DNA from: Galbibacter kalidii
Lineage (GTDB): Bacteria; Bacteroidota; Bacteroidia; Flavobacteriales; Flavobacteriaceae
Direction: 5' to 3'
Assembly: GCF_026241135.1 (NCBI RefSeq)
Contig: NZ_JAPFGA010000007.1
Span: 62,001-126,000 of the forward strand
DNA: 64,000 bases
In this document: positions 10,771-62,211 of the stretch, one piece after another
Numbering within the stretch: position 1 is the stretch's first letter
How the letters are laid out: each line of letters starts with the position of its first letter
Translations under genes and position numbers: made by a program
Notes under the pieces: generated by a model
Database searches by the model: none
Seen by the model: the letters and a program-made list of their open reading frames with translations, nothing else
Told to the model about the DNA's origin: nothing

Positions 10771-11108
10771 GCAGTATGCGAGCACAGCTCAATAGAAGGA
10801 TTGTCCCCTTGAGGACAAACAGAGTAGCAAAATATATTTTTCCACGAGGTTTGCGAGCGCAGCTCATTAGGGGTGTTTTTTTGAATGCTAAATTTTAATA
10901 TTGAAATTTGTAGTTCACTAAGAAACCCTTTCACAACAAATTTCCTGGGGTTGACAACAAGATTGCTGTTATTCAGAAGAAAATATATATTTTAGCGAGA
11001 TGATATACAGGCTTGTGGTTATAAACTAGTTGTATATAATATGAAACACACAATCTGTTTGATATAGATTTTGATGTATAATTAAGTTGTTAAAATCTAA
11101 ATAAAAAA
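10771..11108. other. intergenic region with repeat pair and LytTR-type promoter
   Basis: The first part holds two related fragments, GCGAGCACAGCTCAATAG (about 10778) and GCGAGCGCAGCTCATTAG (about 10853). The second part holds paired LytTR-type half-sites and a -7 box described separately. A roughly 105-nt leader follows before the gene at 11109. Confidence 0.6.
10930..10995 (+). promoter_or_regulatory. LytTR-type promoter for the gene at 11109
   Basis: Half-sites TTCACAACAA (10930-10939) and TTGACAACAA (10951-10960) are in direct repeat exactly 21 bp apart. A -7-like box TATTTTAG begins at 10988, 37 bp after the second half-site starts. This matches six other promoters in the window. Confidence 0.7.
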
Positions 11109-11495
11109 ATGACTGAAAAGAAATATTTTGAGAAAGCCAAGTTTATTTGGCAAAATTATGTGCCCGAGTCAGGGCAGTCAAAGTATGTTCAAGGTGAATT
11201 ATTAAGAGCAATTGAAAAATTGCGTGATGAAGCTCATAGAAATGGTAATATAAACTTCAATGAAAAATGTCACGGGATATTGATTGACTATCTAAGAAAA
11301 AAACTATCGGACAAAAAAGTGTTTAACCAAAAAACAATTGAACAAATCAACACTGATTTGGATAAGTTATCAATTGAAGATAAACCTTATTCAGAAGATG
11401 ACATTTTTGACCGAATATCTAACAGGGTTGTAGATTGGTGTATGTTATACCATGAGCCTATTTCTCATGAAGAGAATGATGAATTATACTGTTAA
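11109..11495 (+). CDS. hypothetical protein, 128 residues
   Basis: Not recognised. It is a soluble, charged, mostly helical protein rich in Lys, Glu and Asn, with no signal peptide or membrane segment. The C-terminal part reads RISNRVVDWCMLYHEP and ends in Tyr-Cys. Codon use is AT-rich compared with the neighbouring molybdoenzyme genes, which suggests acquisition. It is preceded by a LytTR-type promoter, making it a candidate target of the regulator at 33942. An inverted repeat, TGTTAACGTAA / TTACGTATAACA, follows the stop at about 11488-11513 and may act as its transcription end. Confidence 0.6.
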   Translation: MTEKKYFEKAKFIWQNYVPESGQSKYVQGELLRAIEKLRDEAHRNGNINFNEKCHGILIDYLRKKLSDKKVFNQKTIEQINTDLDKLSIEDKPYSEDDIFDRISNRVVDWCMLYHEPISHEENDELYC

Positions 11496-11641
11496 CGTAA
11501 AAAATTACGTATAACAGTACATCCTATGAAAAAACCAACCTATGATTACCAATTACACCAATGTTGCTAAATGGCTATCAAAAACTGATAAGGAAAATGT
11601 TGGGTAATTGCATATAATTCGGCTATACCAATACATACCAT

Positions 11642-12019
11642 CTAAGACAAACTGTCGACAAACTCCCCTTTTTCATTGACGACTTGGTTTCCCCATTTGG
11701 TAATGGCTTCCAGAACGGGAATAAATGATTTCCCAAAATCAGTTAAACTATAGACAACTTTTATGGGTGGTTTTTTTCCATAAACCTTTCTTGAAACCAA
11801 ACTGTCTTTTTCCAATTGCTTTAACTGTAAACTTAAAGTCATTTCTGTTACAGCGGGCATTTCCCTACGGAGTTCACTGAATCTTTTTTTACCATCTGCT
11901 AAATGATATAGGATAACGGTTTTCCATTTTCCGCCAACTAAATCCATTGTCAAACTTACAGAACAGGGGTAGGTTTTTCCTTTAAGCCTGACATACTCAC
12001 CTTTACATTCATCCTTCAT
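11642..12019 (-). CDS. HxlR-family winged-helix transcriptional regulator
   Basis: 125 residues with the HxlR signature: Cys in PCSVSLTMDLVGGKWKTVI, the recognition region SELRREMPAVTEMTLSLQLKQLE, and the wing KPPIKVVYSLTDFG. Family members sense redox state or electrophiles through the conserved Cys and usually regulate a divergently transcribed reductase. Here the divergent neighbour is a flavodoxin-fold quinone reductase, with 104 bp between starts. Start ATG is at 12017-12019. Confidence 0.92.
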   Translation of the reverse strand: MKDECKGEYVRLKGKTYPCSVSLTMDLVGGKWKTVILYHLADGKKRFSELRREMPAVTEMTLSLQLKQLEKDSLVSRKVYGKKPPIKVVYSLTDFGKSFIPVLEAITKWGNQVVNEKGEFVDSLS

Positions 12020-12037
12020 ATTTATTTGATTTTAAAC

Positions 12038-12106
12038 CTATCTAAATTGATAGTTATTGCAAAAGTAAAAGGCTAAAATTAGTTTTGCAACTATAATTAT
12101 TATAGT
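12038..12106 (+). promoter_or_regulatory. divergent promoter with candidate HxlR operators
   Basis: Two palindromes lie between the divergent genes: CTATCTAAATTGATAG (12038-12053, 5-bp arms) and ACTATAATTATTATAGT (12090-12106, perfect 8-bp arms). A -33-like TTG at 12057-12059 and a -7 box TAGTTTTG at 12080-12087, 20 bp apart, drive the reductase. The second palindrome covers the expected start site, so binding would repress. Confidence 0.55.
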
Positions 12107-12123
12107 ATTAAAATTTAAAAATT

Positions 12124-12669: not shown

Positions 12670-12718
12670 AAACTGCGGAATTTCCTACTCAGAAATTCAA
12701 CTCATTTTCCTACTTTTA

Positions 12719-12820: not shown

Positions 12821-12854
12821 GCAAACATAAAGCATTAACACCAAGTCAAAAACC

Positions 12855-14725: not shown

Positions 14726-15613
14726 CTATTTAACTTTCAATTCAGTTGTGATGTTCAATTTTTTATCAGAGTTTTTGTCTTTTAATCTCGCGACCAGTTT
14801 ACAAGGATTGTTTATTTGTCCACTGGAAAAAGTAATGGTAACGGGAAGTTGACCTTCGGTGAAAGCTTCAGCATTGATACCCTCTAGTTCATATTTACTT
14901 AAAACATTTGAGTCGGAAATGATTTTATTTCCATTGTTATCTATAAGGGCTATTGACAAAACCGGATATACATTTCCGTTTTTTACCGTTAAACCATCAA
15001 GTCCTTCCAGTATTAAAGCCAATTGATTTTCTTGGTTTACTTGATTGTCTAAAACAGGTTGCTTTAGGCTTTCATTCCATAAATAGATGTGCGAGTAGTT
15101 TATATCTTTAGAATCAATATTCAATAGCTCATTTTCTTCTACTGTAAAAGGAAGTTCATATAAAAAAGTTCCTTCTCCTTTTTTATCCCAAATACTGACT
15201 TTGACTTTGTATTTTTCTTTGTTTCTATAAGGTAAAACGGCTATGAAATTCGCCTGAAGTTTGATAGGGGATAGCGCTGTTCCTTCTTTCAAGTCTTTTA
15301 ATAAATCAGGGTAAGTAAGGACAGTATCTTTTTCATTTTTGGTGATAAACAATGATAGTCCGGGAAATATTTTCCCCCCTTCTTTTTTGAAGCCACTTAT
15401 GTTATTGAAAACGAAATTCACTTTTTCCCCATGAACAAAATGATTTCTCTTTTCATTTTTTCCATTGACTTGGATAACCACTTCGTCACAACTAATTCCA
15501 TCACCCCTTGAGTAGGCACCGGAGATCATGTCTTTGTTTACAGATTGGTTAAAATTACAAGCGTTAAAAAATAAGGAAAGTAGGATAATACCAGCTAAAA
15601 TTGTTCTTTTCAT
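14726..15613 (-). CDS. hypothetical lipoprotein
   Basis: 295 residues from the ATG at 15611-15613, chosen because MKRTILAGIILLSLFFNAC is a clean lipoprotein signal with the lipidated Cys at 19. The rest is two similar beta-rich halves: NFVFNNISGFKKEGGKIFPGLSLFI in the first and ALILEGLDGLTVKNGNVYPVLSIAL in the second share the pattern L(x)G-xGK/N-(F/Y)PxLS-(I/L), so the protein seems to be an internal duplication of an immunoglobulin-like or TssD-like fold. No known domain was recognised. Expressed from a LytTR-type promoter at 15666-15732 with an adjacent 21-bp repeat array. Confidence 0.72.
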   Translation of the reverse strand: MKRTILAGIILLSLFFNACNFNQSVNKDMISGAYSRGDGISCDEVVIQVNGKNEKRNHFVHGEKVNFVFNNISGFKKEGGKIFPGLSLFITKNEKDTVLTYPDLLKDLKEGTALSPIKLQANFIAVLPYRNKEKYKVKVSIWDKKGEGTFLYELPFTVEENELLNIDSKDINYSHIYLWNESLKQPVLDNQVNQENQLALILEGLDGLTVKNGNVYPVLSIALIDNNGNKIISDSNVLSKYELEGINAEAFTEGQLPVTITFSSGQINNPCKLVARLKDKNSDKKLNITTELKVK

Positions 15614-15665: not shown

Positions 15666-15732
15666 CTAAACTATGAACTTTATCCTAAAATAACCTCCAT
15701 TTTGTTGTGAACTGTAGTTATATTGTTGTGAA
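15666..15732 (-). promoter_or_regulatory. LytTR-type promoter for the lipoprotein gene
   Basis: On the minus strand, half-sites TTCACAACAA at 15732-15723 and 15711-15702 are identical and 21 bp apart. The -7-like box TAGTTTAG starts at 15673, 38 bp after the second half-site starts. The gene begins about 53 nt further on. Confidence 0.72.
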
Positions 15733-31488: not shown

Positions 31489-31496
31489 TACATTTG
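31489..31496 (+). promoter_or_regulatory. -7 box upstream of menB
   Basis: TACATTTG, an exact TAnnTTTG match 18 bp before the menB ATG. A TTTG at 31461-31464 could be the -33 element, though spacing is slightly long. Confidence 0.45.
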
Positions 31497-31514
31497 GGGG
31501 AAATACCAAAAAGT

Positions 31515-32357
31515 ATGAGTGTACCGCAGTGGAAAACTGTTAAGGAATTTGAAGATATTACTTATAAAAAATCAAATGGAGTAGCCCGAATCGCTTTCAA
31601 CCGACCTAATGTTAGAAATGCGTTCAGACCACAAACCACAGGTGAATTGTATGAAGCGTTCTATGACGCACAGGAAGATACAAGTATAGGAGTTGTATTA
31701 CTGTCAGCTGAAGGGCCTTCTACAAAAGACGGTGTTTATTCCTTTTGTAGTGGTGGTGATCAACGTGCCCGCGGACATCAAGGATATGTTGGAGAAGATG
31801 GGATGCACCGCTTGAATATTCTCGAAGTACAGCGTTTGATTCGTTTTATGCCCAAGGTGGTTATTGCCGTAGTTCCCGGATGGGCCGTTGGAGGCGGACA
31901 CAGCCTACATGTGGTTTGTGACATGACTTTGGCCAGTAAAGAACACGCCATTTTTAAACAAACCGATGCCGATGTAACAAGTTTTGACGGTGGGTACGGA
32001 TCAGCTTATCTCGCTAAAATGGTGGGACAGAAAAAAGCACGTGAAATATTTTTCTTAGGAAGGAATTATTCTGCCCAAGAGGCTTTTGACATGGGTATGG
32101 TCAATGCTGTAGTTCCACATGACGAATTGGAAGACACTGCCTACCAATGGGCTCAGGAAATTCTGGAAAAATCACCGACTTCTATAAAAATGTTAAAGTT
32201 CGCGATGAACCTAACCGATGATGGTATGGTAGGACAACAGGTATTTGCAGGTGAAGCGACACGTTTGGCCTATATGACGGAGGAAGCTAAAGAAGGAAGA
32301 AACGCATTTCTGGAGAAAAGGAAACCAGATTTTAAAAATATAAAATGGATTCCATAA
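31515..32357 (+). CDS. menB: 1,4-dihydroxy-2-naphthoyl-CoA synthase
   Basis: 280 residues from the ATG at 31515 (MSVPQWKTVKEFEDI); a longer frame exists but this start fits MenB proteins and follows the -7 box. Crotonase-fold enzyme that closes the naphthoquinone ring from o-succinylbenzoyl-CoA. Signatures: IAFNRPNVRNAFRPQTTGEL, FCSGGDQRARG, VPGWAVGGGHSLHVVCDMTLAS (oxyanion-hole region) and TDADVTSFDGGYGSAYLA. Downstream genes follow closely on the same strand. Confidence 0.97.
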   Translation: MSVPQWKTVKEFEDITYKKSNGVARIAFNRPNVRNAFRPQTTGELYEAFYDAQEDTSIGVVLLSAEGPSTKDGVYSFCSGGDQRARGHQGYVGEDGMHRLNILEVQRLIRFMPKVVIAVVPGWAVGGGHSLHVVCDMTLASKEHAIFKQTDADVTSFDGGYGSAYLAKMVGQKKAREIFFLGRNYSAQEAFDMGMVNAVVPHDELEDTAYQWAQEILEKSPTSIKMLKFAMNLTDDGMVGQQVFAGEATRLAYMTEEAKEGRNAFLEKRKPDFKNIKWIP

Positions 32358-32386
32358 AAATGATTGTTTAATTAAAAATTCATGAT

Positions 32387-32995
32387 ATGCCCTACATTGA
32401 TGAAAATCACTTAGTTAACCTGCATAAGGTTATCGAATCTAAAGAGATTTCCGAGGAAAAGCTTTTGAATGAATTGAGAAGGCAGAGAGAAGAAAAAGAT
32501 AGGATTCACCGTTCCAGAAATGTGTTCAGGTGGACATCCGTTTCTTTGATTGCTGTATTGTTTGTTGGAGTACTTTTGTATTTTGTAAAGCCATCGGTAT
32601 ATGTAAACGATTCGCTTTTACAATCGCAGAACAAAATGCTGATCGATAAGAACGACCTACAATCTTATAAAGATCAGATATCACAATTAGAAGGTCATAT
32701 TGAAAACTCAAACCATCAATTGGACGAAATTGATTACAGGAATATTGATAAAGAAGTAATTTATGCTGTTCAAATAGCAGCACTGGAAAACAAAGATCTT
32801 TCCCTGTATTCAGAAGAGTTGCGAAATATCAGTCAGTACAGAGACCAACCATACAACAAATATTCCCTTGGCAATTTCACTTCTCTGGACGACGCCAAAA
32901 CATTTAGAAAAGAATTGGTCGATTTAGGGTTTAACGATGCTTTTGTAGCATCCTATAAAGATGGAAAACGAATAAAAATAGAAGAGGCTTTTTAA
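32387..32995 (+). CDS. membrane protein with C-terminal SPOR-like domain
   Basis: 202 residues. A cytoplasmic helical part (1-45), one transmembrane helix (about 48-67, WTSVSLIAVLFVGVLLYFV), a short coiled-coil (about 80-115), and a C-terminal domain beginning VIYAVQIAALENKDLS with NKYSLGNFTSLDDAKTFRKELVDLGFNDAFVASYKDG. The last block has the alternation of a SPOR domain, which binds denuded peptidoglycan at division sites. It lies 29 nt after menB and 7 nt before menA, so it is probably cotranscribed although unrelated to quinones. Confidence 0.8.
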   Translation: MPYIDENHLVNLHKVIESKEISEEKLLNELRRQREEKDRIHRSRNVFRWTSVSLIAVLFVGVLLYFVKPSVYVNDSLLQSQNKMLIDKNDLQSYKDQISQLEGHIENSNHQLDEIDYRNIDKEVIYAVQIAALENKDLSLYSEELRNISQYRDQPYNKYSLGNFTSLDDAKTFRKELVDLGFNDAFVASYKDGKRIKIEEAF

Positions 32996-33002
32996 TTTTT
33001 TA

Positions 33003-33911
33003 ATGACAAAATCTAAAACACTGCTATCAGCCGCCAGGCTGAGGACATTACCACTTTCTGTTTCCGGAATCATAGTAGGTTCTGCCATAGCATTTTCAGA
33101 AGGGTATTACAATCTCTACGTTCTTATTTTTGCTTTGACAACCACCGTTGGCTTGCAGATACTTTCCAACTTTGCTAATGACTATGGGGATGGAGTTAAG
33201 GGAACAGACAACATGGATAGGGTAGGGCCAGTAAGAGCCATCCAAAGTGGGGTGATTACCAACAAAGAAATGTTGAGTGCCATTGTTGTGACTGTTGTTT
33301 TAACGATCATATCGGCCATTGTTTTGATCTATTTTGCTTTTAGGGGCAATAATTTCACCTATTCCCTTTTCTTCTTTTTACTGGGTATCGCTGCTGTTGT
33401 GGCTGCCATAAAATATACGGTAGGAAACTCTGCATATGGCTATAGCGGATTTGGAGATGTTTTTGTGTTTATATTTTTCGGTTTGGTGAGTGTTGCGGGA
33501 TCTTACTTTCTATATACCCAAAACATGAACCCTGATGTGCTGTTGCCCGCTTTTTCCATCGGACTTCTGAGTGTTGGGGTTTTAAACCTGAACAATATGC
33601 GGGACATGGAAAGCGATAAAAAAGCCGGAAAACACACACTTGTGGTTAAAATTGGAGCTGGAAAAGCAAAACAATATCATTATATAATTCTTATATTAGC
33701 CATGTTCTTTGGTTTTATATATTTATTATTTAATTATAGGTCTCTCATAAATTTACTGTTTCTTATTTCATACATACCTATAATTCTACATTTAAGAAGA
33801 GTGTATGTTAATAAAAATGCAAAAACATTAGACCCTGAATTAAAGAAGCTTGCATTGAGTACCTTTTTCTTTGCCATACTGTTTTTACTGAGTTATAATA
33901 TTTTTTTGTAG
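33003..33911 (+). CDS. menA: 1,4-dihydroxy-2-naphthoate polyprenyltransferase
   Basis: 302 residues, an integral membrane UbiA-family enzyme that prenylates DHNA to demethylmenaquinone. The first Asp-rich motif is NFANDYGDGVKGTDNMDRVGP (about 61-80) and the second, LNNMRDMESDKKAGKHTL (about 197-214). About eight hydrophobic segments span the chain. TSS AARLRTLPLSVSGI at the start is family-typical. ATG at 33003, 7 nt after the SPOR gene stop. Confidence 0.95.
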   Translation: MTKSKTLLSAARLRTLPLSVSGIIVGSAIAFSEGYYNLYVLIFALTTTVGLQILSNFANDYGDGVKGTDNMDRVGPVRAIQSGVITNKEMLSAIVVTVVLTIISAIVLIYFAFRGNNFTYSLFFFLLGIAAVVAAIKYTVGNSAYGYSGFGDVFVFIFFGLVSVAGSYFLYTQNMNPDVLLPAFSIGLLSVGVLNLNNMRDMESDKKAGKHTLVVKIGAGKAKQYHYIILILAMFFGFIYLLFNYRSLINLLFLISYIPIILHLRRVYVNKNAKTLDPELKKLALSTFFFAILFLLSYNIFL

Positions 33912-33941
33912 ATTTAAAGAAGAATTTAACCCTAACATATT

Positions 33942-34709
33942 TTGAACCAACCAATTAAAGTTCTAATTATCGAGGATAATGTCATTATCGCCGACGATAT
34001 GCAATCCATGCTTGAGGATATTGGATATGAAATTGTAGCCAATGTAGTTGATTATGAAAGTGCGGTTGAAGCACTTGAAAAAAATGAGGTAGATCTTGCT
34101 TTGGTTGATATCGTTCTTGCATCAAAGAAAACAGGGATAGATTTAGGGAAACACATTAGGGAAAACTACAGTATTCCATTCATTTTTGTAACTTCAAATT
34201 CTGATAAAGCCACTGTTGAAAATGCCAAAACGGTAAAACCTAACGGATATTTGGTAAAACCTTTTGAACAGCAGGATTTATTCACTTCCATAGAAATAGC
34301 CCTTTCTAATTTTAATGAAGAAACCGCATACTTGTCCAATAAACAAATAGAAAAAGAGGAGGATGAGGATGACAGTAAATTGGTATCGAATTCGGTTCTG
34401 AGGAATTCTATTTTTATCAAAAAATCACAACACTATTACAGAATCCCTTTTGACGAGATTCAATATGTCAAGGCAGATAACGTCTATTTAGAGGTTCATA
34501 CTGTTGATAAAACCTTTTTGGTTCGTTCAGCTTTAAAAGATTATTTGGAAAAATTACCGCCCAAACAGTTCTATCGCGCTCACAAATCGTATATCGTAAA
34601 TTTAGATCACATAGAAGCTATCAACACGAGAGATATTGTGATTAAAGGAGAAAACATCCCAATTTCCAAGGAATTTAGGGAGTTTATACTTTCCAATATG
34701 AACTCTTAA
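33942..34709 (+). CDS. LytTR-family response regulator
   Basis: 255 residues. Start is TTG (33942-33944), giving NQPIKVLIIEDNVIIADDMQ. Receiver domain (about 1-122): acidic pair Glu11-Asp12, phospho-acceptor Asp56 in ALVDIVLA, Thr/Ser in FVTSNSD and Lys in YLVKPF. An acidic linker (about 130-150) leads to the C-terminal LytTR DNA-binding domain (about 155-253) with IFIKKSQHYYRIPFDEI, YVKADNVYLEVH and QFYRAHKSYIVNLDHIEAI. LytTR regulators bind direct repeats about 21 bp apart, and such repeats occur in three places just downstream. The histidine kinase at 35534 is the likely partner. Confidence 0.95.
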   Translation: MNQPIKVLIIEDNVIIADDMQSMLEDIGYEIVANVVDYESAVEALEKNEVDLALVDIVLASKKTGIDLGKHIRENYSIPFIFVTSNSDKATVENAKTVKPNGYLVKPFEQQDLFTSIEIALSNFNEETAYLSNKQIEKEEDEDDSKLVSNSVLRNSIFIKKSQHYYRIPFDEIQYVKADNVYLEVHTVDKTFLVRSALKDYLEKLPPKQFYRAHKSYIVNLDHIEAINTRDIVIKGENIPISKEFREFILSNMNS

Positions 34710-34737
34710 AACCCCTTTTACAACATTAATAGTATAC

Positions 34738-34803
34738 TTCACCACAAAAAGGGAGCAGTTGACAACATATTTTTTTTAATATCAAGCTAAGGCTATATAT
34801 TTA
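34738..34803 (+). promoter_or_regulatory. LytTR-type promoter, unit 1
   Basis: Half-sites TTCACCACAA (34738-34747) and TTGACAACAT (34759-34768), 21 bp apart; -7-like box TATATTTA at 34796, 37 bp after the second site starts. It sits 29 bp after the regulator's stop codon. Confidence 0.68.
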
Positions 34804-34808
34804 CATCA

Positions 34809-34926
34809 GTTAGTTAATGTATTGATACTGCCCCGATTCTTAACTAATACCTATTGCATACAACTACCTAACAAATGGTAAATTAGTAAAAAGAGCTTTA
34901 GTTTTCTATTGCTCTTTTTATTTTTT
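34809..34926 (+). ncRNA. candidate small RNA 1
   Basis: Predicted from position only: start near GTTAGTTAATG at 34809, end at the hairpin AAAAAGAGC / GCTCTTTTT with trailing T-rich tract (34888-34926). About 115 nt. The longest internal ATG frame is two codons, so a peptide is unlikely. Confidence 0.5.
34888..34926 (+). terminator. terminator of unit 1
   Basis: 9-bp arms AAAAAGAGC (34888-34896) and GCTCTTTTT (34911-34919), a 14-nt loop, then ATTTTTT. Confidence 0.7.
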
Positions 34927-35096
34927 ATCCCCCTCCAGCTCCCGCCTTGGGCGGGGAGAGTGAAAAAACACTAAATTTCCAGTTTGCATCCATATTCTTT
35001 TGAGGAGTTAGGGGAGGGTTTAAATTCCAATTTGACACTCCTAATTTCGTACTTAGTATTTCAGATTTCGTATTTCAAAAACATATAATAGTTCAT

Positions 35097-35162
35097 TTCA
35101 CAACAAGAATTGGACAGTTCACAACAAAAATTATTTTATCCGGGATATATGGGTTAAGTTCG
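35097..35162 (+). promoter_or_regulatory. LytTR-type promoter, unit 2
   Basis: Half-sites TTCACAACAA at 35097-35106 and 35118-35127 are identical and 21 bp apart; the similarity extends a few bases beyond (AATT). The -7-like box TAAGTTCG starts at 35155, 37 bp after the second site. Confidence 0.75.
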
Positions 35163-35166
35163 TCCT

Positions 35167-35258
35167 GTTAATAATTAAGTCGGTTAATGCACAGACAACT
35201 TGTTTCATAATGTTGCTGAAAAGAGTTTTAAGGTTCTCCTTAAGACTCTTTTTCAGTT
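35167..35258 (+). ncRNA. candidate small RNA 2
   Basis: Predicted to start near GTTAATAATTAAG at 35167 and end at the long hairpin 35216-35256, about 90 nt. A seven-codon ATG frame (MHRQLVS) lies inside but has no other coding signs. Confidence 0.5.
35216..35258 (+). terminator. terminator of unit 2
   Basis: CTGAAAAGAGTTTTAAGG (35216-35233), TTCT loop, CCTTAAGACTCTTTTTCAG (35238-35256): an 18-bp stem with one bulge. The following sequence TTTG is only moderately T-rich. Confidence 0.72.
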
Positions 35259-35345
35259 TGTGCAAGATACATCCTTCTCTTTTTATTGCTTTAAAGCCAA
35301 AATACTGAGCTGTGTTTGAGGATAATACATACCTTATCTGTTGAT

Positions 35346-35410
35346 TTACAACAACTTTTGCTTTTCACACAACAAAAATTTAGTTTTTTTACCAATTTGA
35401 TTTAAGTTTA
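35346..35410 (+). promoter_or_regulatory. LytTR-type promoter, unit 3
   Basis: Half-sites TTACAACAA (35346) and ACACAACAA (35367) share ACAACAA exactly 21 bp apart. The -7-like box TAAGTTTA starts at 35403, 36 bp after the second site. Confidence 0.66.
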
Positions 35411-35417
35411 TCTTGCT

Positions 35418-35503
35418 GTTAAGATGTTAGTTATATAATCTAGAGAAATGGTTATTATATAAACTGTCTGGAAAAGCCTAAACTAAAATTTAGGCTTTTT
35501 TTA
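35418..35503 (+). ncRNA. candidate small RNA 3
   Basis: Predicted to start near GTTAAGATGTTAGTTA at 35418 and end at the hairpin 35472-35499, about 85 nt. It stops 30 bp before the histidine kinase ATG, so readthrough could also feed the kinase. Confidence 0.48.
35472..35503 (+). terminator. terminator of unit 3
   Basis: AAAAGCCTAAA (35472-35482) / TTTAGGCTTTT (35489-35499), 6-nt loop, followed by a T-run. A strong rho-independent terminator directly upstream of the kinase gene. Confidence 0.85.
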
Positions 35504-35533
35504 AAAGATGTTATACCTTTAAGGGTTTTATAA

Positions 35534-37507
35534 ATGTCCATATTGTCACAATTACTTAAATATAAAAAAGAAACGCTTTTTATTGTATTGTTGCTTATGG
35601 CAGTAATGCCTTTTTATGCGCAATCGACTAATACCAATATAAAAGAAAAGGATCCCTTAGAGGTTTTTCTGCAACAACCCACTGCACAGGGGAAATTCAA
35701 CTATTTTTTTAATACTGAAGATAAATACAAAGTAAGCTCGGTTTACACTTGGCTTGATTCTATTGCTTCACCTATGAGTGTGGCAGAAATCAGGAAGGAC
35801 TCTGTAAGTATTTACAAATACAGAACTGTCTTATCACAGCTTTATTATGATGTTGGAAACTATGACAAGGGAATTTTAATAGCTGAATTGCTCTACCAAA
35901 AAAATGAAAAGCTGGATAAGGATGTCAAAACCCGACTTCTTAAAATAATGGATAACCTCTATGGGTCACTTCAATTGTATGATAAACAACTGGAAGTGAG
36001 AAGGGGGCTAAAATATTCAGGAGAGGACGTTGTGCTTTATGATATATATGCAGATCTAGGTTTGTATAGACAGGCCATGATGGAATATATCATGAGCAAC
36101 AAGGAGGCTATGGAGAGTAGTGGGGATCAATATGAAAAGGCAAAATATTATAACGATCTTGGGTTTTATCTGCTTAAAGACGGTTCGATCTTTACTGCGA
36201 TCAAAAATATTGAAACCGCTAAACACAGCATTAATCGTTATCTAATGGATAATGAGAAAATAACGTCTGATCAATTTGATGAAGCACTTTTTTTGGAAGG
36301 ACAAATAGAGAGCAATCTTGGAAAATGCAGAATGCTCCAAAACAAGTATAGAGAAGCAATACCCTATTTGGAAACGGGTGTTTCAGCCGCCAGGATATAT
36401 GATATGGGAAGATACTCCCAAACGATGGTAGATTTATGGGGGGATTTGGCCGAGTGCTATCTCGAAACGGGAAACTTGAGGTATGCTAAAGCCTACCTTG
36501 ATAGCATCGTTAGCAAACAACAAATCGTAAAATCACATTCAGTAAACTACAATCGGCTTAGGGCTAATTATCATTTAAAGGACAGCAATCCGGATTCAGC
36601 TTCTTTGTTTTTCAAAAGATATGTAAAACTGATAGACTCTTTGGATTACAACAGCAAAAAGAAGCAATTGCTCAGTCTCTTGGTTCAGTTTGATTTGAAT
36701 AATCAGAAGGAAACCATAGCGCGGCAACGCTTAAATATAGAGAGAAATAAAGCAGAGATTCTTGAGCGTGAAAAAACCATTTATGTCAGTGTGACCGCAC
36801 TCGGACTTTGTGTTGTTTGTGTTATCGGTTTGATCGTGGCCTATATTATCAGTATTAAAAACAAACGACTGATTGAAAATCAGAAAATGATCATCGAAAA
36901 CTCATTGGTGGAAAAAGATTCGCTTCTTAAGGAAATCCACCATAGGGTAAAGAACAATCTTCAAATGGTTTCCAGCTTGTTGAGTCTTCAAACAAAAAAT
37001 ACGCGAAGCCGGGCGGCGATCAGTGCTTTGGAAGAAGGAAAGAGTAGGGTGAAGGCTATGGCACTTATCCATCAGAAATTATATCAGAATGAAGACCTTT
37101 CCGTGATCGAGATGCAGGAATATATTGAATCCCTATCGGCCAGTATACAGTCGGTGTACAAAAAAGAAGGATATCATATTTGTATGCATATCAATGCCAA
37201 AGGAACAGAACTGGATGTGGATAGGGCCATACCTATTGGGTTGATACTGAATGAATTGATATCCAATTCCTTCAAATATGCTTTTGAAAACAACAAAAAA
37301 GGGAATATTTATATCAATCTCAAGCGGGAGGAAGGTATTTTCTTTGAATATATGGATGATGGTATAGGTTTCCCGGAAGAATCGGTAGCGGTCACTTCCA
37401 ATTCCATGGGAATGAATCTCGTAAGCCGGTTGGCCGATCAGCTTCGCTCCAAACTTCACATAGATACAGGCGTACAAGGCGTTCGTTTTTGGTTCTATTT
37501 CAATTAA
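35534..37507 (+). CDS. membrane sensor histidine kinase with TPR-like sensor region (HisKA_2)
   Basis: 657 residues. Signal-like hydrophobic N-terminus (about 14-30, ending FYAQS), a periplasmic helical TPR-like region (about 90-380, with YNDLGFYLLKDGSIFTAIKNIETA and LWGDLAECYLETGNLRYAKAYLDS), a coiled-coil, one transmembrane helix (about 418-440), then the kinase core. The phospho-acceptor is His470 in LLKEIHHRVKNNLQMVSSLLSLQ, the HisKA_2 type, followed by an N-box ELISNSFKYAFE and DDGIGFPEE. This kind usually pairs with LytTR regulators. It lies 824 bp downstream of one, with three candidate small RNAs between. Confidence 0.93.
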   Translation: MSILSQLLKYKKETLFIVLLLMAVMPFYAQSTNTNIKEKDPLEVFLQQPTAQGKFNYFFNTEDKYKVSSVYTWLDSIASPMSVAEIRKDSVSIYKYRTVLSQLYYDVGNYDKGILIAELLYQKNEKLDKDVKTRLLKIMDNLYGSLQLYDKQLEVRRGLKYSGEDVVLYDIYADLGLYRQAMMEYIMSNKEAMESSGDQYEKAKYYNDLGFYLLKDGSIFTAIKNIETAKHSINRYLMDNEKITSDQFDEALFLEGQIESNLGKCRMLQNKYREAIPYLETGVSAARIYDMGRYSQTMVDLWGDLAECYLETGNLRYAKAYLDSIVSKQQIVKSHSVNYNRLRANYHLKDSNPDSASLFFKRYVKLIDSLDYNSKKKQLLSLLVQFDLNNQKETIARQRLNIERNKAEILEREKTIYVSVTALGLCVVCVIGLIVAYIISIKNKRLIENQKMIIENSLVEKDSLLKEIHHRVKNNLQMVSSLLSLQTKNTRSRAAISALEEGKSRVKAMALIHQKLYQNEDLSVIEMQEYIESLSASIQSVYKKEGYHICMHINAKGTELDVDRAIPIGLILNELISNSFKYAFENNKKGNIYINLKREEGIFFEYMDDGIGFPEESVAVTSNSMGMNLVSRLADQLRSKLHIDTGVQGVRFWFYFN

Positions 37508-37616
37508 AATTCATTAATTTAGGCTTTTATTAGATATGGAGCACAGCGATTCCATGTGTGCAACATCCCAAAGCTTCGGGATTGCACATTTTGGTCGGTG
37601 TAAAAATTTTAAACAC

Positions 37617-38294: not shown

Positions 38295-39437
38295 ATGAAA
38301 GCAAGTTATAAACGATACGTATTGAATTTTAAACGTCCCGGAGGAACTTCCAGAGGGGTGCTTACTCAAAAAGAAACATGGTTTATCATTATAGAAGATC
38401 AAAGCCACTATGGTATTGGCGAATGTGGTATTTTACGGAAGCTGAGCATTGATGACCGACCAGATTATGAAGAAAAACTGGATTGGACCTGTAAAAATAT
38501 CACCCTGGGGAAAGAAAAACTTTGGGAAGCACTAAAAGAATTCCCGTCCATTCAGTTTGGGGTGGAGCAGGCTTTTGTTTCTTTGAAAAATCAACAGCCT
38601 CAGGGAAAGACCGCGAAGTATAAATCGGAACCTCCCCAAAAAAACATTTCAACGCAAGCGTCGGGTCATATTAAATCTCACTTAGTGAGAAGGTCCCCTT
38701 TTCAATTATTTCCATCCGATTTTAGTACAGGAAAAGCGGCTATCAACATCAACGGTTTGGTTTGGATGGGTGATGAAGCCTTTATGCGGGAACAGATCAC
38801 GGAAAAAATAGCTGCGGGTTTTGGGTGTATCAAAATGAAAATAGGTGCGATCGATTTTGAAACCGAATTGAAATTATTACAATCCATTCGAAAAACATTT
38901 TCAGCTAAAGAAATAGAATTAAGGGTAGATGCCAATGGGGCTTTTGCGCCGAATGAAGCATTGGACAAACTCAGAAGACTGTCAGAACTAGAACTGCATT
39001 CCATCGAGCAGCCCATCAAACAAGGACAATGGGAAGAAATGGCAGCATTGTGCAGGGAAACGCCTTTACCGATCGCCTTGGACGAGGAATTAATCGGCGT
39101 TTTTGATGTAACAAAAAAGAAAGAATTGCTACAAACTATTAAACCACAATACATCATTTTAAAGCCGAGTTTGGTGGGTGGATATCGTGGTGCTGAAGAG
39201 TGGATCAACCTATGTGAAGGAATGAACATCTATTGGTGGATTACCAGTGCGCTGGAAAGTAATATAGGGCTGAATGCCATTGCTCAGTGGACATACACCT
39301 TAAACAACAACATGCCACAAGGTTTAGGGACAGGGAGTTTGTTCACGAATAATATCGAGAGTCCACTGGAAGTAAAAAACGGTGCTTTGCAGTACAATTC
39401 GTCAAGGGAATGGAATTGGCAATCCACAATATTATAA
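38295..39437 (+). CDS. menC: o-succinylbenzoate synthase with in-frame repeat insertion
   Basis: 380 residues. Enolase-superfamily enzyme that dehydrates SHCHC to o-succinylbenzoate in menaquinone synthesis. Barrel motifs: CIKMKIGAIDFETELKLL with the KxK-type catalytic Lys, LRVDANGAF, SIEQPI, ALDEELIGV, and YIILKPSLVGGYRGAEEW. Residues about 100-133 (QQPQGKTAKYKSEPP through KSHLVR) are encoded by an inverted copy of the family-A intergenic repeat, 102 bp long, so 34 residues are added without breaking the frame. That makes the protein about 34 residues longer than flavobacterial relatives as I recall them. The catalytic parts look intact. Confidence 0.9.
   Translation: MKASYKRYVLNFKRPGGTSRGVLTQKETWFIIIEDQSHYGIGECGILRKLSIDDRPDYEEKLDWTCKNITLGKEKLWEALKEFPSIQFGVEQAFVSLKNQQPQGKTAKYKSEPPQKNISTQASGHIKSHLVRRSPFQLFPSDFSTGKAAININGLVWMGDEAFMREQITEKIAAGFGCIKMKIGAIDFETELKLLQSIRKTFSAKEIELRVDANGAFAPNEALDKLRRLSELELHSIEQPIKQGQWEEMAALCRETPLPIALDEELIGVFDVTKKKELLQTIKPQYIILKPSLVGGYRGAEEWINLCEGMNIYWWITSALESNIGLNAIAQWTYTLNNNMPQGLGTGSLFTNNIESPLEVKNGALQYNSSREWNWQSTIL
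38593..38694 (-). repeat. family-A interspersed repeat, copy 3, inside menC
   Basis: Read on the minus strand it begins CTCACTAAGTGAGATTTAAT, continues GACGCTTGCGTTGAAATG and TTTTTTTGGGGAGG, and ends CTTCGCGGTCTTTCCCTGAG then GCTGTTG. This follows the block order of the intergenic copy at 12719-12820 (56 bp nearly identical, then about 20 of 27 matching). Length 102 bp, divisible by three. Confidence 0.85.
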
Positions 39438-39447
39438 AAAGACATTT

Positions 39448-40428
39448 ATGTTTATAAAACAAGCTTTTAATTACAAGTATAAATTTCCGCGCTATATCAT
39501 TGGACTTGTTTTGGTGGTGTTTTTCTATTTTATGGGACAGATTCCATTGGGAGCTGCCTTATTTTTAAGTGGCAAGATGGATGAAATAGATCCTAATGAT
39601 ACTGCAGCACTCCTAGGCTTGTTGGAGCCCAATCTTGGGCTTTTCTTGATGTTATTGTCTCCTGCCTTTGGTTTATTAGTATTATTGCTTTGGGTGAAAT
39701 TCGGACATCAACAACCCATCAGGGCATTGACCACCGCCCGTAAAAAAGTGGACTGGAAACGCATTTGGTTTTCGTTCCTGTTGTGGGCTTCGATTTCAAC
39801 TATACTAGTCTTTGTTGATATATGGTTATCCCCGGAAAGTTATGAGTTCAACTTCAAATTATACCCTTTTTTAATCTTGGTAGTTATCGCCATAGTGATG
39901 CTTCCTATACAAACCAGTATGGAAGAATACCTCTTCAGGGGATATCTGATGCAAGGCTTGGGGACACTACTGAAGAACAAATGGGCGCCTTTGGTGATTA
40001 CCTCGCTTATGTTCGGATTATTGCATGGTGCTAATCCGGAAGTGGATAAACTAGGCTGGGGCATTATGGTGTATTATATCGGAACCGGACTTTTTCTGGG
40101 AATCATCACTTTGATGGATGACGGTATGGAGCTCGCTTTGGGTTTTCACGCGGCCAACAACTTAACCGCAGCTTTGCTCGTTACTGCTGATTGGACAGCC
40201 CTACAAACACACTCCCTCTACAAAGATATATCCGATCCCGTGCTGGGGTATGACGTCTTAGTTCCTGTTTTGGTTTTCTTCCCGATTATAATACTCATCT
40301 TTTCCCTGAAATACGGTTGGAATGATTGGGTAGAAAAATTAACCGGGAAAATAGAGAAGCCTTTGATGCCAGAAAAAGTAAAGAACCTCGAAATGGTTGA
40401 TGAAAAACCGGAAACAAATACCTTGTAA
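39448..40428 (+). CDS. CPBP-family intramembrane protease
   Basis: 326 residues from the ATG at 39448 (MFIKQAFNYKYKFPRYIIG); earlier starts fall inside menC. About eight transmembrane segments. The Abi/CPBP motifs are EEYLFRGYL (motif 1, Glu-Glu-x3-Arg), HGANPE (motif 2, His) and GFHAANN (motif 4, His-x3-Asn). These proteases process prenylated or other membrane proteins; the substrate is unknown. A hydrophilic C-terminal tail (about 290-326) is typical of flavobacterial forms. Sits between menC and menE. Confidence 0.92.
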   Translation: MFIKQAFNYKYKFPRYIIGLVLVVFFYFMGQIPLGAALFLSGKMDEIDPNDTAALLGLLEPNLGLFLMLLSPAFGLLVLLLWVKFGHQQPIRALTTARKKVDWKRIWFSFLLWASISTILVFVDIWLSPESYEFNFKLYPFLILVVIAIVMLPIQTSMEEYLFRGYLMQGLGTLLKNKWAPLVITSLMFGLLHGANPEVDKLGWGIMVYYIGTGLFLGIITLMDDGMELALGFHAANNLTAALLVTADWTALQTHSLYKDISDPVLGYDVLVPVLVFFPIIILIFSLKYGWNDWVEKLTGKIEKPLMPEKVKNLEMVDEKPETNTL

Positions 40429-40474
40429 ACCTTTGTTTCCAGGAAAAACCGTTTTAAATTTATTGCACTAACGA

Positions 40475-41614
40475 ATGGACTCGTTTATGAGTTCAATAAT
40501 TAAAAAAACGGTGACAAAACTACCTAGCTTTGATAAGATCCATTTACGGTTTAGGCTAAACAATACCTACTACAGCAGGGAAGACCTAAAAGAAGTGGCC
40601 TATAGCTTCGTAAAAGAAGGAGCGCCCTATGAGCAATCTGTTGGTGATTTCCTGATTGATTGGTTGAACGATAAAGATCATCTGTATGTGCGGACTTCTG
40701 GTTCTACGGGAACGCCAAAAACCATTCGTTTGCAAAAACAATATATGGTCAATTCGGCCGTAGCCTCGGGGGATTTCTTCGGGATCTCCGTTGGGGATTC
40801 CGCTCTTCATTGTTTACCGGCTGCCTATATTGCCGGAAAGATGATGTTGGTACGTGCTATGGTCCTCGGTTTGGAAATAGATCTGGTAGAACCCAGCCTG
40901 CATCCGATGCAGAAAATTGAAAAAAACTACGATTTCTCGGCCATGATCCCTTTGCAGGTGTATAATTCGTTAGGACAGCTCAATCAGATTAAACAATTGA
41001 TCGTAGGTGGTGCTCCCGTGACCAAGGAGTTGATAGAAAGCGTTCAAGGTAAAATAACTTTTGTTTATGAAACCTACGGAATGACTGAAACGGTAACGCA
41101 TATCGCTGCCAAACAGATCAATAATTTTAAATCTGCTGAAGAAATAGAGGTCGCACACTTCAAGACCCTGCCCAATGTAAGAATAGGGCTAGATGACCGA
41201 AAATGTTTGGTGATCGATGCACCCTATATCGCTGAAGAAACTATTGTAACCAACGATATAGTTGAATTGATCGCTGCTGATGAATTTGAATGGTTGGGGC
41301 GATATGACAACATCATCAATTCCGGTGGCGTAAAACTGATTCCCGAACAGGTGGAAGAAAAACTCGCAGCAGTTATCAAAGAACGTTTTTTTGTCTACGG
41401 AATAGAAGACAAAGCCCTAGGTGAGAAATTAGTGCTGGTTGTTGAAGCCGAAAAAGGAAAATATGACACAGAAGCTCTTTCCAAAAAGATAAAAAGTCTC
41501 AAAAAACTTGACAAATACGAAAACCCAAAGGAAATCTATTGTACCGATGCCTTTATAGAAACCGAAAACGGAAAAGTTATTCGGGAAGCGTCTTTACAGA
41601 AGGCGTTGGGGTAA
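40475..41614 (+). CDS. menE: o-succinylbenzoate-CoA ligase (short form)
   Basis: 379 residues. Adenylate-forming enzyme that activates o-succinylbenzoate with CoA before MenB. Signatures: TSGSTGTPKTIRLQK (AMP/phosphate-binding loop), AAYIAGKMMLVRAM, YGMTETVTHIA and LGRYDNIINSGGVKLIPEQVEE. It is shorter than E. coli MenE (451), missing part of the N-terminal domain, as is common in Bacteroidota. The last 17 codons are repeated downstream at 42298-42352. Confidence 0.94.
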   Translation: MDSFMSSIIKKTVTKLPSFDKIHLRFRLNNTYYSREDLKEVAYSFVKEGAPYEQSVGDFLIDWLNDKDHLYVRTSGSTGTPKTIRLQKQYMVNSAVASGDFFGISVGDSALHCLPAAYIAGKMMLVRAMVLGLEIDLVEPSLHPMQKIEKNYDFSAMIPLQVYNSLGQLNQIKQLIVGGAPVTKELIESVQGKITFVYETYGMTETVTHIAAKQINNFKSAEEIEVAHFKTLPNVRIGLDDRKCLVIDAPYIAEETIVTNDIVELIAADEFEWLGRYDNIINSGGVKLIPEQVEEKLAAVIKERFFVYGIEDKALGEKLVLVVEAEKGKYDTEALSKKIKSLKKLDKYENPKEIYCTDAFIETENGKVIREASLQKALG

Positions 41615-43712: not shown

Positions 43713-43943
43713 TGTCGGAGCAGGAATGTCCCCTATCGGAACAAAACTGTAACGCGTCGGAATTCAACTGCAATGAGTCGGAACACAATTGTAACGTACC
43801 GGAACAGGAATGTAACAGCGTGGAACGCAATTCGATCCTATCGGAATGGGATTTGAACGTGCCGGAATAGAACTTGAACCAGTCGGAACGCATTTTGACC
43901 CTATCGGAACGGAACTTAAGCCTGTCGGAACAGGAATCTAATC
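43713..43943 (+). repeat. perfectly periodic 21-bp tandem array, 11 units
   Basis: Eleven consecutive units of exactly 21 bp, starting at 43713, 43734, 43755 and so on to 43923. Examples: TATCGGAACAAAACTGTAAC(G), AGTCGGAACACAATTGTAAC(G), TGTCGGAACAGGAATCTAAT(C). Consensus nnYCGGAAYnnnAnYTGnAnC. Units vary at many positions yet no indel breaks the phase. A related array is at 15741-15880. Confidence 0.9.
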
Positions 43944-44007
43944 ATAAGCAATAGAAAAGTAACCATAAGCAACTTATGTCCCATTAATAAAAAGCTTATT
44001 ATATTTA
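43942..44007 (+). promoter_or_regulatory. LytTR-like promoter for the DUF3667 gene
   Basis: Half-sites TCATAAGCAA (43942-43951) and CCATAAGCAA (43963-43972), 21 bp apart and continuous in phase with the upstream array. The -7-like box TATATTTA starts at 44000, 37 bp after the second site, the same spacing as the TTCACAACAA promoters although the half-site sequence differs. Confidence 0.6.
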
Positions 44008-60162: not shown

Positions 60163-60325
60163 GGTTAGAGGTTAGAGGTTAGAAATGTGTACATCCCTGA
60201 ATAAGGTTAACCGTGGAATTTTGATTTCAAGTACTAAATAATAATAAAAGTAAAAAATAGCTCCTCCCTTTAGACAAAGGGAGGTGGATTATCCGCCCAA
60301 AGCGGATAAGACGGAGGGTTCTGAT
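60163..60325. repeat. repeat-bearing spacer after the DCC gene
   Basis: Includes CTCCTCCCTTTAGACAAAGG GAGGTGG (about 60263-60289), CCGCCCAAAGCGG, and GACGGAGGG, all variants of the CCTCC...GGAGG repeat group also seen near 19855 and 35000. Confidence 0.55.
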
Positions 60326-60371
60326 GAGTCCGTTTTATAAATTGACACACTTTATGAAACGGACTCTTTTT
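60326..60371 (+). terminator. rho-independent terminator
   Basis: GAGTCCGTTTTATAAA / TTTATGAAACGGACTC stem with TTTTT following. It ends the DCC transcript and, on the other strand, may end the lipoprotein transcript. Confidence 0.8.
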
Positions 60372-60381
60372 GTACTGGGTT

Positions 60382-61353
60382 TTAAAAACTTCTAACAGCT
60401 CTTACATGATTTTCAAAACCTTTTATTCCAATATCATAAGTGGTTTGCAACCCATCATCTCCATTTCTGAAAGATTGCACCCAAGCTGCTTCATATCCAT
60501 TAGTTTCATAATTATCTTGATCTTCAAATTCAGTGGAGCTCCAATACCAACCATTGCAACATTCACTTTCGCCATCTTCAAAGTCTCCAAAACCATTAAG
60601 GTGTAAGTTGCTGTATATCAAGTCAAGTTCATCTTTACTGGGGAGATACCAATTAGTGTAACCGTCTAAAGTTAGTTCATCACATATTTTAGCGGCATAA
60701 TCTGATTCATTGCAAATTTTTACAATTTCATTAGTGTTTGATATTCCTGAACCGATTGATGAAAATTCAGCTCCCGAAACATTTGTTCCTTCACAACCCC
60801 ATATGGCACCAGTGCTTTGGTCAGAAGGAGCAGCTACCATTCCATTTCCATTACTTGTGTCTAAATAAAAGATCAAACCTCCCTGATAAGTTAGTCCATA
60901 CAGTTCTTCCAACAATGAATTATCGCTTTGATATATTTCAAAGGGTGTTTCCCCACTATCTAGCCTTTCTTGTAAACTTAATTCGTTAACATCGTTCAAA
61001 TTTATAGTTACCGAAATGTTTTTAAATCTATCTTCAGTTTCTATTCTAACTGTAGCTGTGACCTGAGAATTGTTTTCAAAATCAAATAAACTAGCGTTCA
61101 TAACAAATAGTTCTCCGGTTGATAGGTTTATTTCCATAGCATCATTTGGATTTTGTTCCTCAATAGAGAAAGACAAAGTCCCTTGATTTACAGTGGCATC
61201 AACTATGCCTAATGATTGATTATTCATTGGATTTTCATCTATTTCAGTTGAAAAATTTGAAGCTGTTATGGTTATATCAACTATTTCTTCGTCGCTATTT
61301 TCAGTACAAGAGATTACTATGCAAAATAATACTATAAACCTTATTTGTTCCAT
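60382..61353 (-). CDS. lipoprotein with cadherin-like and DUF1566-like domains
   Basis: 323 residues. Signal with a lipobox near Cys16 (FCIVISCTEN). A beta-rich N-terminal half resembling cadherin-type repeats: IDENPMNNQSLGIVDA, MEINLSTGELFVMNASLFDFEN and VTATVRIETEDRFKNISVTINLNDVNE. The C-terminal half resembles DUF1566/Lcl: GGLIFYLDTSNGNGMVAAPSDQ, AAKICDELTLDGYTNWYLPSKDELDLIY and ENHVRAVRSF. Surface adhesin-like architecture. Its start overlaps the end of the GIY-YIG-like gene by 13 bp, so the two are cotranscribed. Confidence 0.88.
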   Translation of the reverse strand: MEQIRFIVLFCIVISCTENSDEEIVDITITASNFSTEIDENPMNNQSLGIVDATVNQGTLSFSIEEQNPNDAMEINLSTGELFVMNASLFDFENNSQVTATVRIETEDRFKNISVTINLNDVNELSLQERLDSGETPFEIYQSDNSLLEELYGLTYQGGLIFYLDTSNGNGMVAAPSDQSTGAIWGCEGTNVSGAEFSSIGSGISNTNEIVKICNESDYAAKICDELTLDGYTNWYLPSKDELDLIYSNLHLNGFGDFEDGESECCNGWYWSSTEFEDQDNYETNGYEAAWVQSFRNGDDGLQTTYDIGIKGFENHVRAVRSF

Positions 61354-61979
61354 TTCGTATCTTTTTTTAAGATTCTAAATTCGTATTTTTCAGTCAAACT
61401 TTCTCTTATAGATTCAAAATCATAATTGTTTTCTGAACAAACTTGCTTAACAAACTTTTTAGCTTTAGAATATGAACAATGAAAAGTTTCGTGAGAATCT
61501 TGCCAATGTCCATCATGTTCATAATCGAGAGAAAAAGCATAGTTGTTTAAAAGTGAATTTGCTCTTGTTTCGATTCGTCCAGCATTTTTACTCTTAAGTG
61601 CAAATAGAACTTTCCAATCATTAAATCCAGCATAATTTGTTCTGTTTAATGATTCTGAACGTATTTCTACAGCTTTTGTGAACCCAATTTTAATAACATT
61701 TCCTGTCAAAGAACCTGCAATATATGTCACTCCAACAGAGTCGTTTCTTTTCTGAAAGGCCATGTGCGCTGTATTACATTGACAACAATGTCCGCTTCTT
61801 GTTCTTAAAGTGTGTCCTGATTTTTTACAAGGTGTTACATTATAAGCTATATATTTATTCAGCTCTTTCATTATTGGACGATACTTCGATTTAGACATCC
61901 CTTTTGCATTAAAAACAAACTTAAGATGAACTCTATGTTCGTTAAGAAAGTTAATTTGTTCTTTAGTTAAACCATGCAT
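61341..61979 (-). CDS. GIY-YIG-like (T5orf172-type) protein
   Basis: 212 residues. The N-terminal half is basic with a CCQC zinc-ribbon hint (GHTLRTRSGHCCQCNTAHMAF). The C-terminal half reads GVTYIAGSLTGNVIKIGFTKAVEIRSESLNRTNY, where Y-I and K-I-G-x-(T/S) in that spacing match the GIY-YIG/T5orf172 fold; ETRANSLLNNYAF supplies the Glu. This fold occurs in DNA-processing nucleases. ATG at 61977-61979, 160 nt after a LytTR-type promoter. The downstream lipoprotein overlaps its end. Confidence 0.75.
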   Translation of the reverse strand: MHGLTKEQINFLNEHRVHLKFVFNAKGMSKSKYRPIMKELNKYIAYNVTPCKKSGHTLRTRSGHCCQCNTAHMAFQKRNDSVGVTYIAGSLTGNVIKIGFTKAVEIRSESLNRTNYAGFNDWKVLFALKSKNAGRIETRANSLLNNYAFSLDYEHDGHWQDSHETFHCSYSKAKKFVKQVCSENNYDFESIRESLTEKYEFRILKKDTKWNK

Positions 61980-62145
61980 TTTGTTTCTTTTAAATTACCT
62001 ACAATTCCATTATATAAGCAAAGTACCATTTAACAATCTTCATTATCAAATATCATCGCTTTTTTGGCATAAACATTCCCCCAAAATAATCAAATTAACT
62101 TTAACAACCCTTGCGGAATCCCGTAAAACTTGTATTTATTCCCTT

Positions 62146-62211
62146 CTAAACTATATTTTTTTCTCTTAAAAGCACAATTATTGTTGTGAAGGGTTGGGGA
62201 TTTGTTGTGAA
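62146..62211 (-). promoter_or_regulatory. LytTR-type promoter for the GIY-YIG/lipoprotein operon
   Basis: On the minus strand, half-sites TTCACAACAA at 62211-62202 and 62190-62181 are identical and 21 bp apart. The -7-like box TAGTTTAG starts at 62153, 37 bp after the second half-site, and is identical to the box of the lipoprotein gene at 15613. Confidence 0.75.

Follow-up and report, generated by a model that had tools for sequence, protein, structure and literature searches.

Candidate regulon of a LytTR/HisKA_2 two-component system with predicted small RNA output in Galbibacter kalidii and related Flavobacteriaceae

The stretch of the Galbibacter kalidii genome analysed in this study (RefSeq assembly GCF_026241135.1, contig NZ_JAPFGA010000007.1, positions 62,001 to 126,000 of the forward strand; 64,000 nucleotides, hereafter the window) encodes a LytTR response regulator and a HisKA_2 histidine kinase. 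Very probably, this system governs a regulon by way of a single promoter type, with small RNAs (sRNAs) as a main class of its output. A first-pass annotation had described seven sites (a to g) of one shared architecture and proposed that they form a regulon of the regulator at 33942. Six of the seven (a, b, c, d, e and g) carry TTSACAACAA-like half-sites with a period of exactly 21 bp and a TAnnTTTG-type -7 box, and site f was set aside for its different half-site. The proposal that the regulator acts on these six sites, presumably by binding their DNA, is supported by co-occurrence, adjacency and fixed geometry, as far as sequence can tell. What the annotation overlooked is that non-coding units with apparent terminators, and not protein genes, follow sites c, d and e.

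The regulator locus and its promoter sites

The two proteins and the promoter sites of the window are as follows.

33942..34709, plus strand: LytTR response regulator P0001, receiver domain PF00072 (E 3.8e-21) and LytTR domain PF04397 (E 1.2e-21) by Pfam; proposed activator
35534..37507, plus strand: histidine kinase P0002, TPR region, HisKA_2 and HATPase_c by Pfam
10930..10960, plus strand: site a; -7 box TATTTTAG at 10988-10995
15702..15732, minus strand: site b; -7 box TAGTTTAG at 15673-15666
34717..34768, plus strand: site c; half-sites 34738-34747 and 34759-34768 and a weaker third at 34717-34726, all 21 bp apart
34796..34803, plus strand: -7 box of site c, TATATTTA
35097..35127, plus strand: site d; half-sites 35097-35106 and 35118-35127, perfect
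35155..35162, plus strand: -7 box of site d, TAAGTTCG
35345..35375, plus strand: site e; half-sites 35345-35354 and 35366-35375
35403..35410, plus strand: -7 box of site e, TAAGTTTA
43942..43972, plus strand: site f; half-site CATAAGCAA, upstream of a DUF3667 gene; outside the motif family
62181..62211, minus strand: site g; -7 box TAGTTTAG at 62153-62146, followed by a leader of about 100 nt

The Pfam domains agree with the annotation that a LytTR regulator and a HisKA_2 kinase are encoded here; the kinase also has, by eye, a signal sequence and one transmembrane helix. Their domains, the adjoining position of the kinase and the 21-bp repeats at a fixed promoter distance mark the pair as a LytTR two-component system whose regulator would bind these repeats. 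The two genes are separated by 824 gene-free bases that hold c, d and e, and the nearest named relatives at the locus belong to Galbibacter and Joostella. All site coordinates were re-read by script against the window sequence. The annotated starts of a, b, c, d, f and g agreed, site e begins at 35345 rather than 35346, and the boxes of b and g are identical, as had been noted.

Counted from where the second half-site ends, the -7 box begins after 28 bp at sites a, c, d, e and g and after 29 bp at site b. Third half-site-like repeats lie in the same 21-bp register at 10972-10981 (site a) and 34717-34726 (site c), and the triple repeat of site c recurs in Galbibacter relatives (loci L028, L030, L031). 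When the window was searched for TTSACAACAA-N11-TTSACAACAA with at most three mismatches, eight matches were obtained (two of them the overlapping third repeats at a and c). The average over 100 shuffled sequences was 0.08, and no shuffle reached eight. The annotation had called for a scan of the whole genome: at the same tolerance it gave 27 matches against 12 for the reversed pattern, and a stricter pattern with at most one mismatch gave nine against none. All nine are followed, by eye, by a -7-like box at +28 or +29. The promoter consensus from 197 distinct promoters, preselected for matching the core and the box, is tTTcACAACA-n11-TTCACAACAA-tAaTtt-..-TAnnTTTg.

Site f has the geometry of the others, with a 21-bp period and a TATATTTA box at +28. 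As a member of the motif family it was rejected, because its half-site differs and because a scan of seven genus genomes for the CATAAGCAA pair (at most two mismatches) gave 18 matches against 10 for its reversed control, the only exact match being site f itself. The region 43942-44007 is possibly a target of another LytTR regulator.

Predicted small RNAs behind the sites

Behind each of the sites c, d and e, the -7 box is followed by a unit of 88-115 nt that finishes with a terminator-like hairpin and T run; the RNA ends are approximate.

34808..34922, plus strand: predicted small RNA c; hairpin with a C-rich loop (GCCCC), terminator stem at about 34888-34919, fold z -4.7
35167..35256, plus strand: predicted small RNA d; terminator hairpin at about 35218-35256, fold z -3.5
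35415..35502, plus strand: predicted small RNA e or attenuated kinase leader; GCTGTTAAGATGTTA block, terminator at about 35472-35502, fold z -2.95

We predict that c, d and e are three tandem sRNAs, the last of which also leads into the kinase. Consensus folds show a terminator hairpin for each unit, c together with eight relatives, d with seven and e with five (Galbibacter, Joostella and Robertkochia among the named ones); for unit e, 2 of 200 shuffles fold equally well. Covariance models of Rfam 15 gave no match at gathering score in the window and 10 relatives, and in 10 dispersed loci they gave a single match, to Flavo-1, outside the units. Matches at E<=5 were all under the gathering scores and were taken as chance. 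The Flavo-1 RNA (RF01705; L209:893-970, minus strand) lies beside three tandem units of genome G055 that are predicted to be LytTR-driven, on the opposite strand.

Relatives have both similar arrangements and dispersed units; we sorted the predicted RNAs into types I, II and V (our labels). Type I comprises 39 distinct sequences selected by TTCATTTTCAT; its 26-nt block TTTTTTCATTTTCATATAGTGTTCTC, of which the selection fixed 11 letters, is invariant in the 25 aligned sequences and exact in 37 of the 39 (exceptions L064 and L091). Type II comprises 36 sequences selected by CCCAAA-like cores, of which 21 were aligned and 15 left out (ten from the Galbibacter/Robertkochia group, five with cut or deviant ends). 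In this alignment CCCAAA never varies, the TCTTA behind it hardly varies, and the terminator has both-side changes in five of nine pairs; CCCAAATCTTA is exact in 21 of the 36. Type V RNAs are dispersed and 110-181 nt long (17 sequences), often with hairpins such as AGTG-TTGACCCCAAATCGG-CACT, and occur in three tandem copies in G055 (L209).

Many dispersed RNAs are predicted to fold with CCCAAAUC in unpaired loops. The 17 type V RNAs, which were not selected by CCCAAAT, contain this motif 21 times in sense and never in antisense orientation, with 0.56 expected from shuffles, and its unpaired probability is 0.86 compared with 0.49 elsewhere in the RNAs. In 29 type II RNAs, a set itself chosen by a related core, the counts are 24 and 0 with 0.4 expected (unpaired 0.86 against 0.55). 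Complements of the loop motif gave five scattered matches in the window, one of them unit c itself, without a pattern.

Alternatively, c, d and e could be leaders or attenuators of the kinase mRNA, parts of one long transcript whose internal terminators set the kinase level. Unit e terminates about 30 nt short of the kinase start codon, and in Eudoraea and some other genera the last site lies directly before the kinase and would drive it without an evident terminator, as this explanation would predict. However, c and d have promoters and terminators of their own and are followed by more spacer and promoters, and like units exist elsewhere (type I away from the regulator locus in L248, tandem type V in L209). 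We therefore consider the leader explanation unlikely, and sRNAs the better reading of these units.

Co-occurrence, conservation and regulon outputs

Orthologs of the regulator (E<=1e-60) were detected in 26 of 149 Flavobacteriaceae genomes. In this sample we counted 70 full promoter patterns, which fall in 25 of the 26 regulator-positive genomes and in none of the 123 negatives; the reversed control gave three matches in total (Fisher p = 1.6e-27, kinship ignored). The combination spans 24 genera of the sample. The half-site pair at no more than one mismatch is found in 25 genomes, 24 of them regulator-positive; the positives without it are G113 and G125, and the negative exception, G116, has one pair directly before a start codon with no -7 box at +28. 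Four Arenibacter genomes with neither a kinase nor a scored site directly after the regulator still have 3, 2, 1 and 1 full promoters elsewhere, and seven of eight genomes searched at zero mismatches contain the full pattern. In a class-wide sample of 198 genomes the pattern occurs in the own genome only (0 of the 197 others; two matches in the control), and the five other proteins matching the regulator at E<=1e-50 share 40-42% identity with it. Behind two of five distant homologs from other families (L227 and L228, about 40% identity), three TTCAGAACA-like repeats follow at 21-bp spacing, a hint that self-control through 21-bp repeats is older than this family.

Conservation at the locus was examined in the best 80 of 276 relative loci (Galbibacter, Joostella, Robertkochia, Arenibacter, Muricauda, Maribacter, Eudoraea, Cellulophaga and others). 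The gene after the regulator was readable by script in 76 of them, on the same strand in 64 (usually the kinase, judged by its first residues) and on the opposite strand in 12, all Arenibacter. A half-site pair scoring above 11 bits is present in 63 of the 64 same-strand loci, the exception (L043) being another Arenibacter, and in none of the 12 opposite-strand loci. Most Arenibacter loci (L037-L042 and L044-L048, e.g. L038:2343) have a scored pair TTTGCAACAA..TTTACAACAA some 1.6 kb upstream of the regulator gene, in front of an open reading frame (ORF) of 203 amino acids.

The annotation had also considered that the pattern might be equally common in coding DNA. This is not the case in the loci tested: in the 64 loci and the window (40.7 kb of intergenic DNA), AC[AC]ACA core pairs are spaced by 21 bp 123 times, by 42 bp six times and by 22 bp four times. 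Upstream DNA of the same total length, most of it coding, contains no core pair at any spacing from 8 to 60 bp. A reversed intergenic control (78 pairs at 21 bp) was discarded as invalid because the core ACAACA reads alike backwards; we therefore relied on the upstream coding control and on reversed whole-pattern searches. Among 129 strong pairs, 114 have the -7 box at exactly +28.

The genes and RNAs behind the promoters were classified for 72 distinct promoters that had a -7 box and whose pair scored 17 or higher, the others being dropped. Forty are sRNA-like (a terminator with no ORF before it), 19 lead to short ORFs, 11 to longer ORFs, several of which are the kinase judged by their start, and two to neither; the proportions are no census, since the set was partly gathered through a search for short ORFs. 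CCCAAA lies within 200 nt of 44 of the 72 promoters, against 219 of the 2206 windows taken from these loci. The short ORFs belong to one family in 16 of 19 cases (33-48 amino acids, ending like AKKLFML), and in 12 of the 13 loci inspected this family follows an operon for a CoA-transferase (identified by eye as scoAB). Among 21 copies listed, an upstream site scoring at least 18 precedes 12 of the 13 from regulator-positive genomes and none of the eight from negatives. The profile of the family matches 50 of the 149 genomes at E<=0.01, and the best 14 (E<=4.1e-7) are all regulator-positive.

In genomes lacking the regulator (L175, L179, L181, L183, L184, L187, L188, L190) the short ORF is preceded by a different repeat, TGTATTTCATCGAT..TTTTTAACTGAT, with a period of about 21 bp before a TATTAG-like box, as if it were under another LytTR protein. 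Several of these leaders contain CCCCAAATCTACC-like motifs, some of them twice.

It is conceivable that another LytTR protein of the same genomes reads the sites, and that the regulator at 33942 is their neighbour by accident. Related LytTR candidates are numerous (at first look 12-71 per listed genome, and 87 in one), and the different repeat at the same short ORF in regulator-negative relatives leaves room for paralogs or diverged orthologs that recognise similar sites. The near-complete partition of the promoter between genomes with and without this very ortholog, and the presence of sites directly after its gene in 18 of 19 other family loci examined, speak against an accidental neighbour, and we regard this alternative as quite improbable. 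That the pattern is functionless intergenic sequence inherited within one clade would fit the restriction of regulator and motif to a subset of Flavobacteriaceae genera, but it is hardly credible given that promoters and RNA cores are conserved while adjoining bases vary, that a terminator stem has changes on both sides and that dispersed sites precede unrelated genes.

Several observations weigh against a regulon with sRNA output under this regulator. What follows the own sites a, b and g is a protein gene in each case, not an sRNA. Units d and e lack CCCAAAT and c has it in the altered form GCCCCGATT; unit e, with a fold z of only -2.95, can be read as a kinase leader instead of an sRNA. A consensus terminator scanner run on the window flagged none of the terminators of c, d and e, which were recognised by reading and folding. 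The consensus fold of the 17 type V RNAs is weak, with only weak terminator pairing. Among the genomes, G065 is regulator-positive (58% identical) without the full pattern, G055 has no site adjoining its regulator, and G356 (Cellulophaga baltica) is the one of the eight without an exact full pattern. Finally, the regulator-positive genera may be one or a few clades, so that 149 genomes are not 149 independent tests.

The protein genes behind the dispersed sites of the window are these.

11109..11495, plus strand: gene downstream of site a, 128 amino acids, no Pfam family
14726..15613, minus strand: gene downstream of site b, lipoprotein-like by eye, no Pfam family
61341..61979, minus strand: gene downstream of site g, T5orf172 / MUG113 protein

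The leader of about 100 nt after site g (window 62077-62153) has nine copies in the own genome and none in six genus relatives; five of the nine have a LytTR site in front. Five copies form an array on contig C20 (L240, 9000-28500) among accessory genes with HNH, SEC-C/HEPN_Swt1, FRG and SMC-like domains, and three more lie at other places. This array looks cassette-like and was considered as a possible integron element; no search for an integrase or recombination sites was made. On another contig of the own genome (C22, L011) a site precedes a gene that resembles, by eye, a ribosome hibernation factor. In three genomes (L136, L247, L249) a predicted secreted-protein family (VKIGENPNSI..ELESTxKAFVLTR, signal-like start by eye) lies directly behind sites. 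The neighbours of the regulator locus (31494-41614) we take, from their Pfam domains, to be menaquinone biosynthesis genes (UbiA/MenA-, MenB-, MenC- and MenE-like).

Proposed mechanism and comparison with known systems

While the motif, its geometry, the co-occurrence with the regulator, the conservation and the terminators were computed directly, we infer binding, activation, transcription and the action of the RNAs in trans through exposed loops. In the model we propose, the TPR-containing HisKA_2 kinase (35534) and the LytTR regulator (33942) would form the controlling two-component system. The phosphorylated regulator would bind a pair, in some cases a triplet, of TTCACAACA half-sites that lie on the same helix face at a spacing of 21 bp, and recruit RNA polymerase to the TAnnTTTG -7 box. 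With this box at -12 to -5 (PMC9723704), the expected position of the half-sites is about -40 to -70 from the start point. A main class of outputs would be the tandem sRNAs c, d and e and the dispersed sRNAs of sister genera; others would be the conserved 33-48-aa protein downstream of the CoA-transferase operon and lineage-specific genes. Site e precedes the kinase gene, from which a terminator separates it (its equivalents lie directly before the kinase in some genera); positive feedback would arise from this position.

The RNAs might act by base pairing or by competition for a shared ligand. If antisense pairing were true, the partner mRNAs would carry GAUUUGGG. For the second route there is a precedent in CsrB, which competes with mRNAs for CsrA. 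The motif CCCAAAUC has the same orientation in sRNAs and in many short-ORF mRNA leaders, also where the regulator is absent, and in short-ORF leaders of relatives lacking the regulator a motif of this type can be tandemly repeated. It is therefore tempting to speculate that sRNAs and leaders form a decoy (sponge) network competing for one ligand, for example an RNA-binding protein, instead of every sRNA having targets of its own to pair with, although we hold this idea only tentatively.

The analysis ties one regulator to a promoter code (TTCACAACA-N12-TTCACAACA, 28 bp, TAnnTTTG) and to several RNA types that have no match in Rfam. Few regulatory RNAs have been charted in marine Flavobacteriaceae; the literature found on them concerns fish-pathogenic Flavobacterium only, and a search by titles and abstract openings, which covered neither subscription papers nor preprints, found no LytTR-sRNA regulon in Flavobacteriaceae. 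The promoter code would be a direct route to the sRNAs of this group. It would also allow LytTR-to-RNA wiring to be studied outside Gram-positives, and sRNA action without Hfq in Bacteroidota, from which, to our knowledge, Hfq is absent.

In streptococci (Gram-positive), one response regulator, CiaR, which is not a LytTR protein, drives the paralogous csRNAs. In VirR/VirS, a LytTR regulator acts through paired direct repeats with a non-coding RNA as intermediate and one main RNA, unlike the tandem and dispersed RNAs with a loop motif predicted here. The RNA of this Clostridium perfringens system is VR-RNA (PMC3673130). In the agr system of Staphylococcus aureus, AgrA, a LytTR regulator, activates its own locus and the adjacent RNAIII (PMC3673130). 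The anatomy of sites and terminators seen here would fit a regulatory RNA encoded beside a LytTR regulator and controlled by it; the agr regulon also includes small amphipathic peptides. In contrast to agr, the system described here combines a TPR-containing HisKA_2 kinase with several short predicted RNAs where agr has a single long one, and it differs in phylum and promoter type. It was not filed as agr because of this kinase type and because no AgrB family protein was found among ten neighbour proteins scanned, the rest of the genome not being searched.

LytTR regulatory systems have 9-bp repeats, mostly 12 bp apart (11-13), just upstream of promoters, and positive autoregulation (PMC6193735). 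The 21-bp period and short fixed promoter distance found here are alike, but those systems pair the LytTR protein with a membrane protein, whereas phospho-signalling with sRNA output is predicted here. In Bacteroides thetaiotaomicron, FopS/GibS belong to a paralogous sRNA family characterised by a terminator and an unpaired, conserved core (PMC11697453), which our predicted RNAs resemble. Core and promoter differ, however, and the FopS seed is a single-stranded 5' end, whereas the motif here is often in hairpin loops. The scanned units have no Rfam 15 match; whether Rfam 15 includes FopS was not checked. Rfp18 of Flavobacterium psychrophilum, an sRNA from the Flavobacteriaceae, is predicted to be strongly structured and is conserved outside its own species (PMC9723704); it is likened by its description, not by sequence or locus, and LytTR does not appear in the main text of that paper. 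In summary, the predicted regulon described here would be that of a LytTR two-component system with regulatory-RNA output in Bacteroidota.

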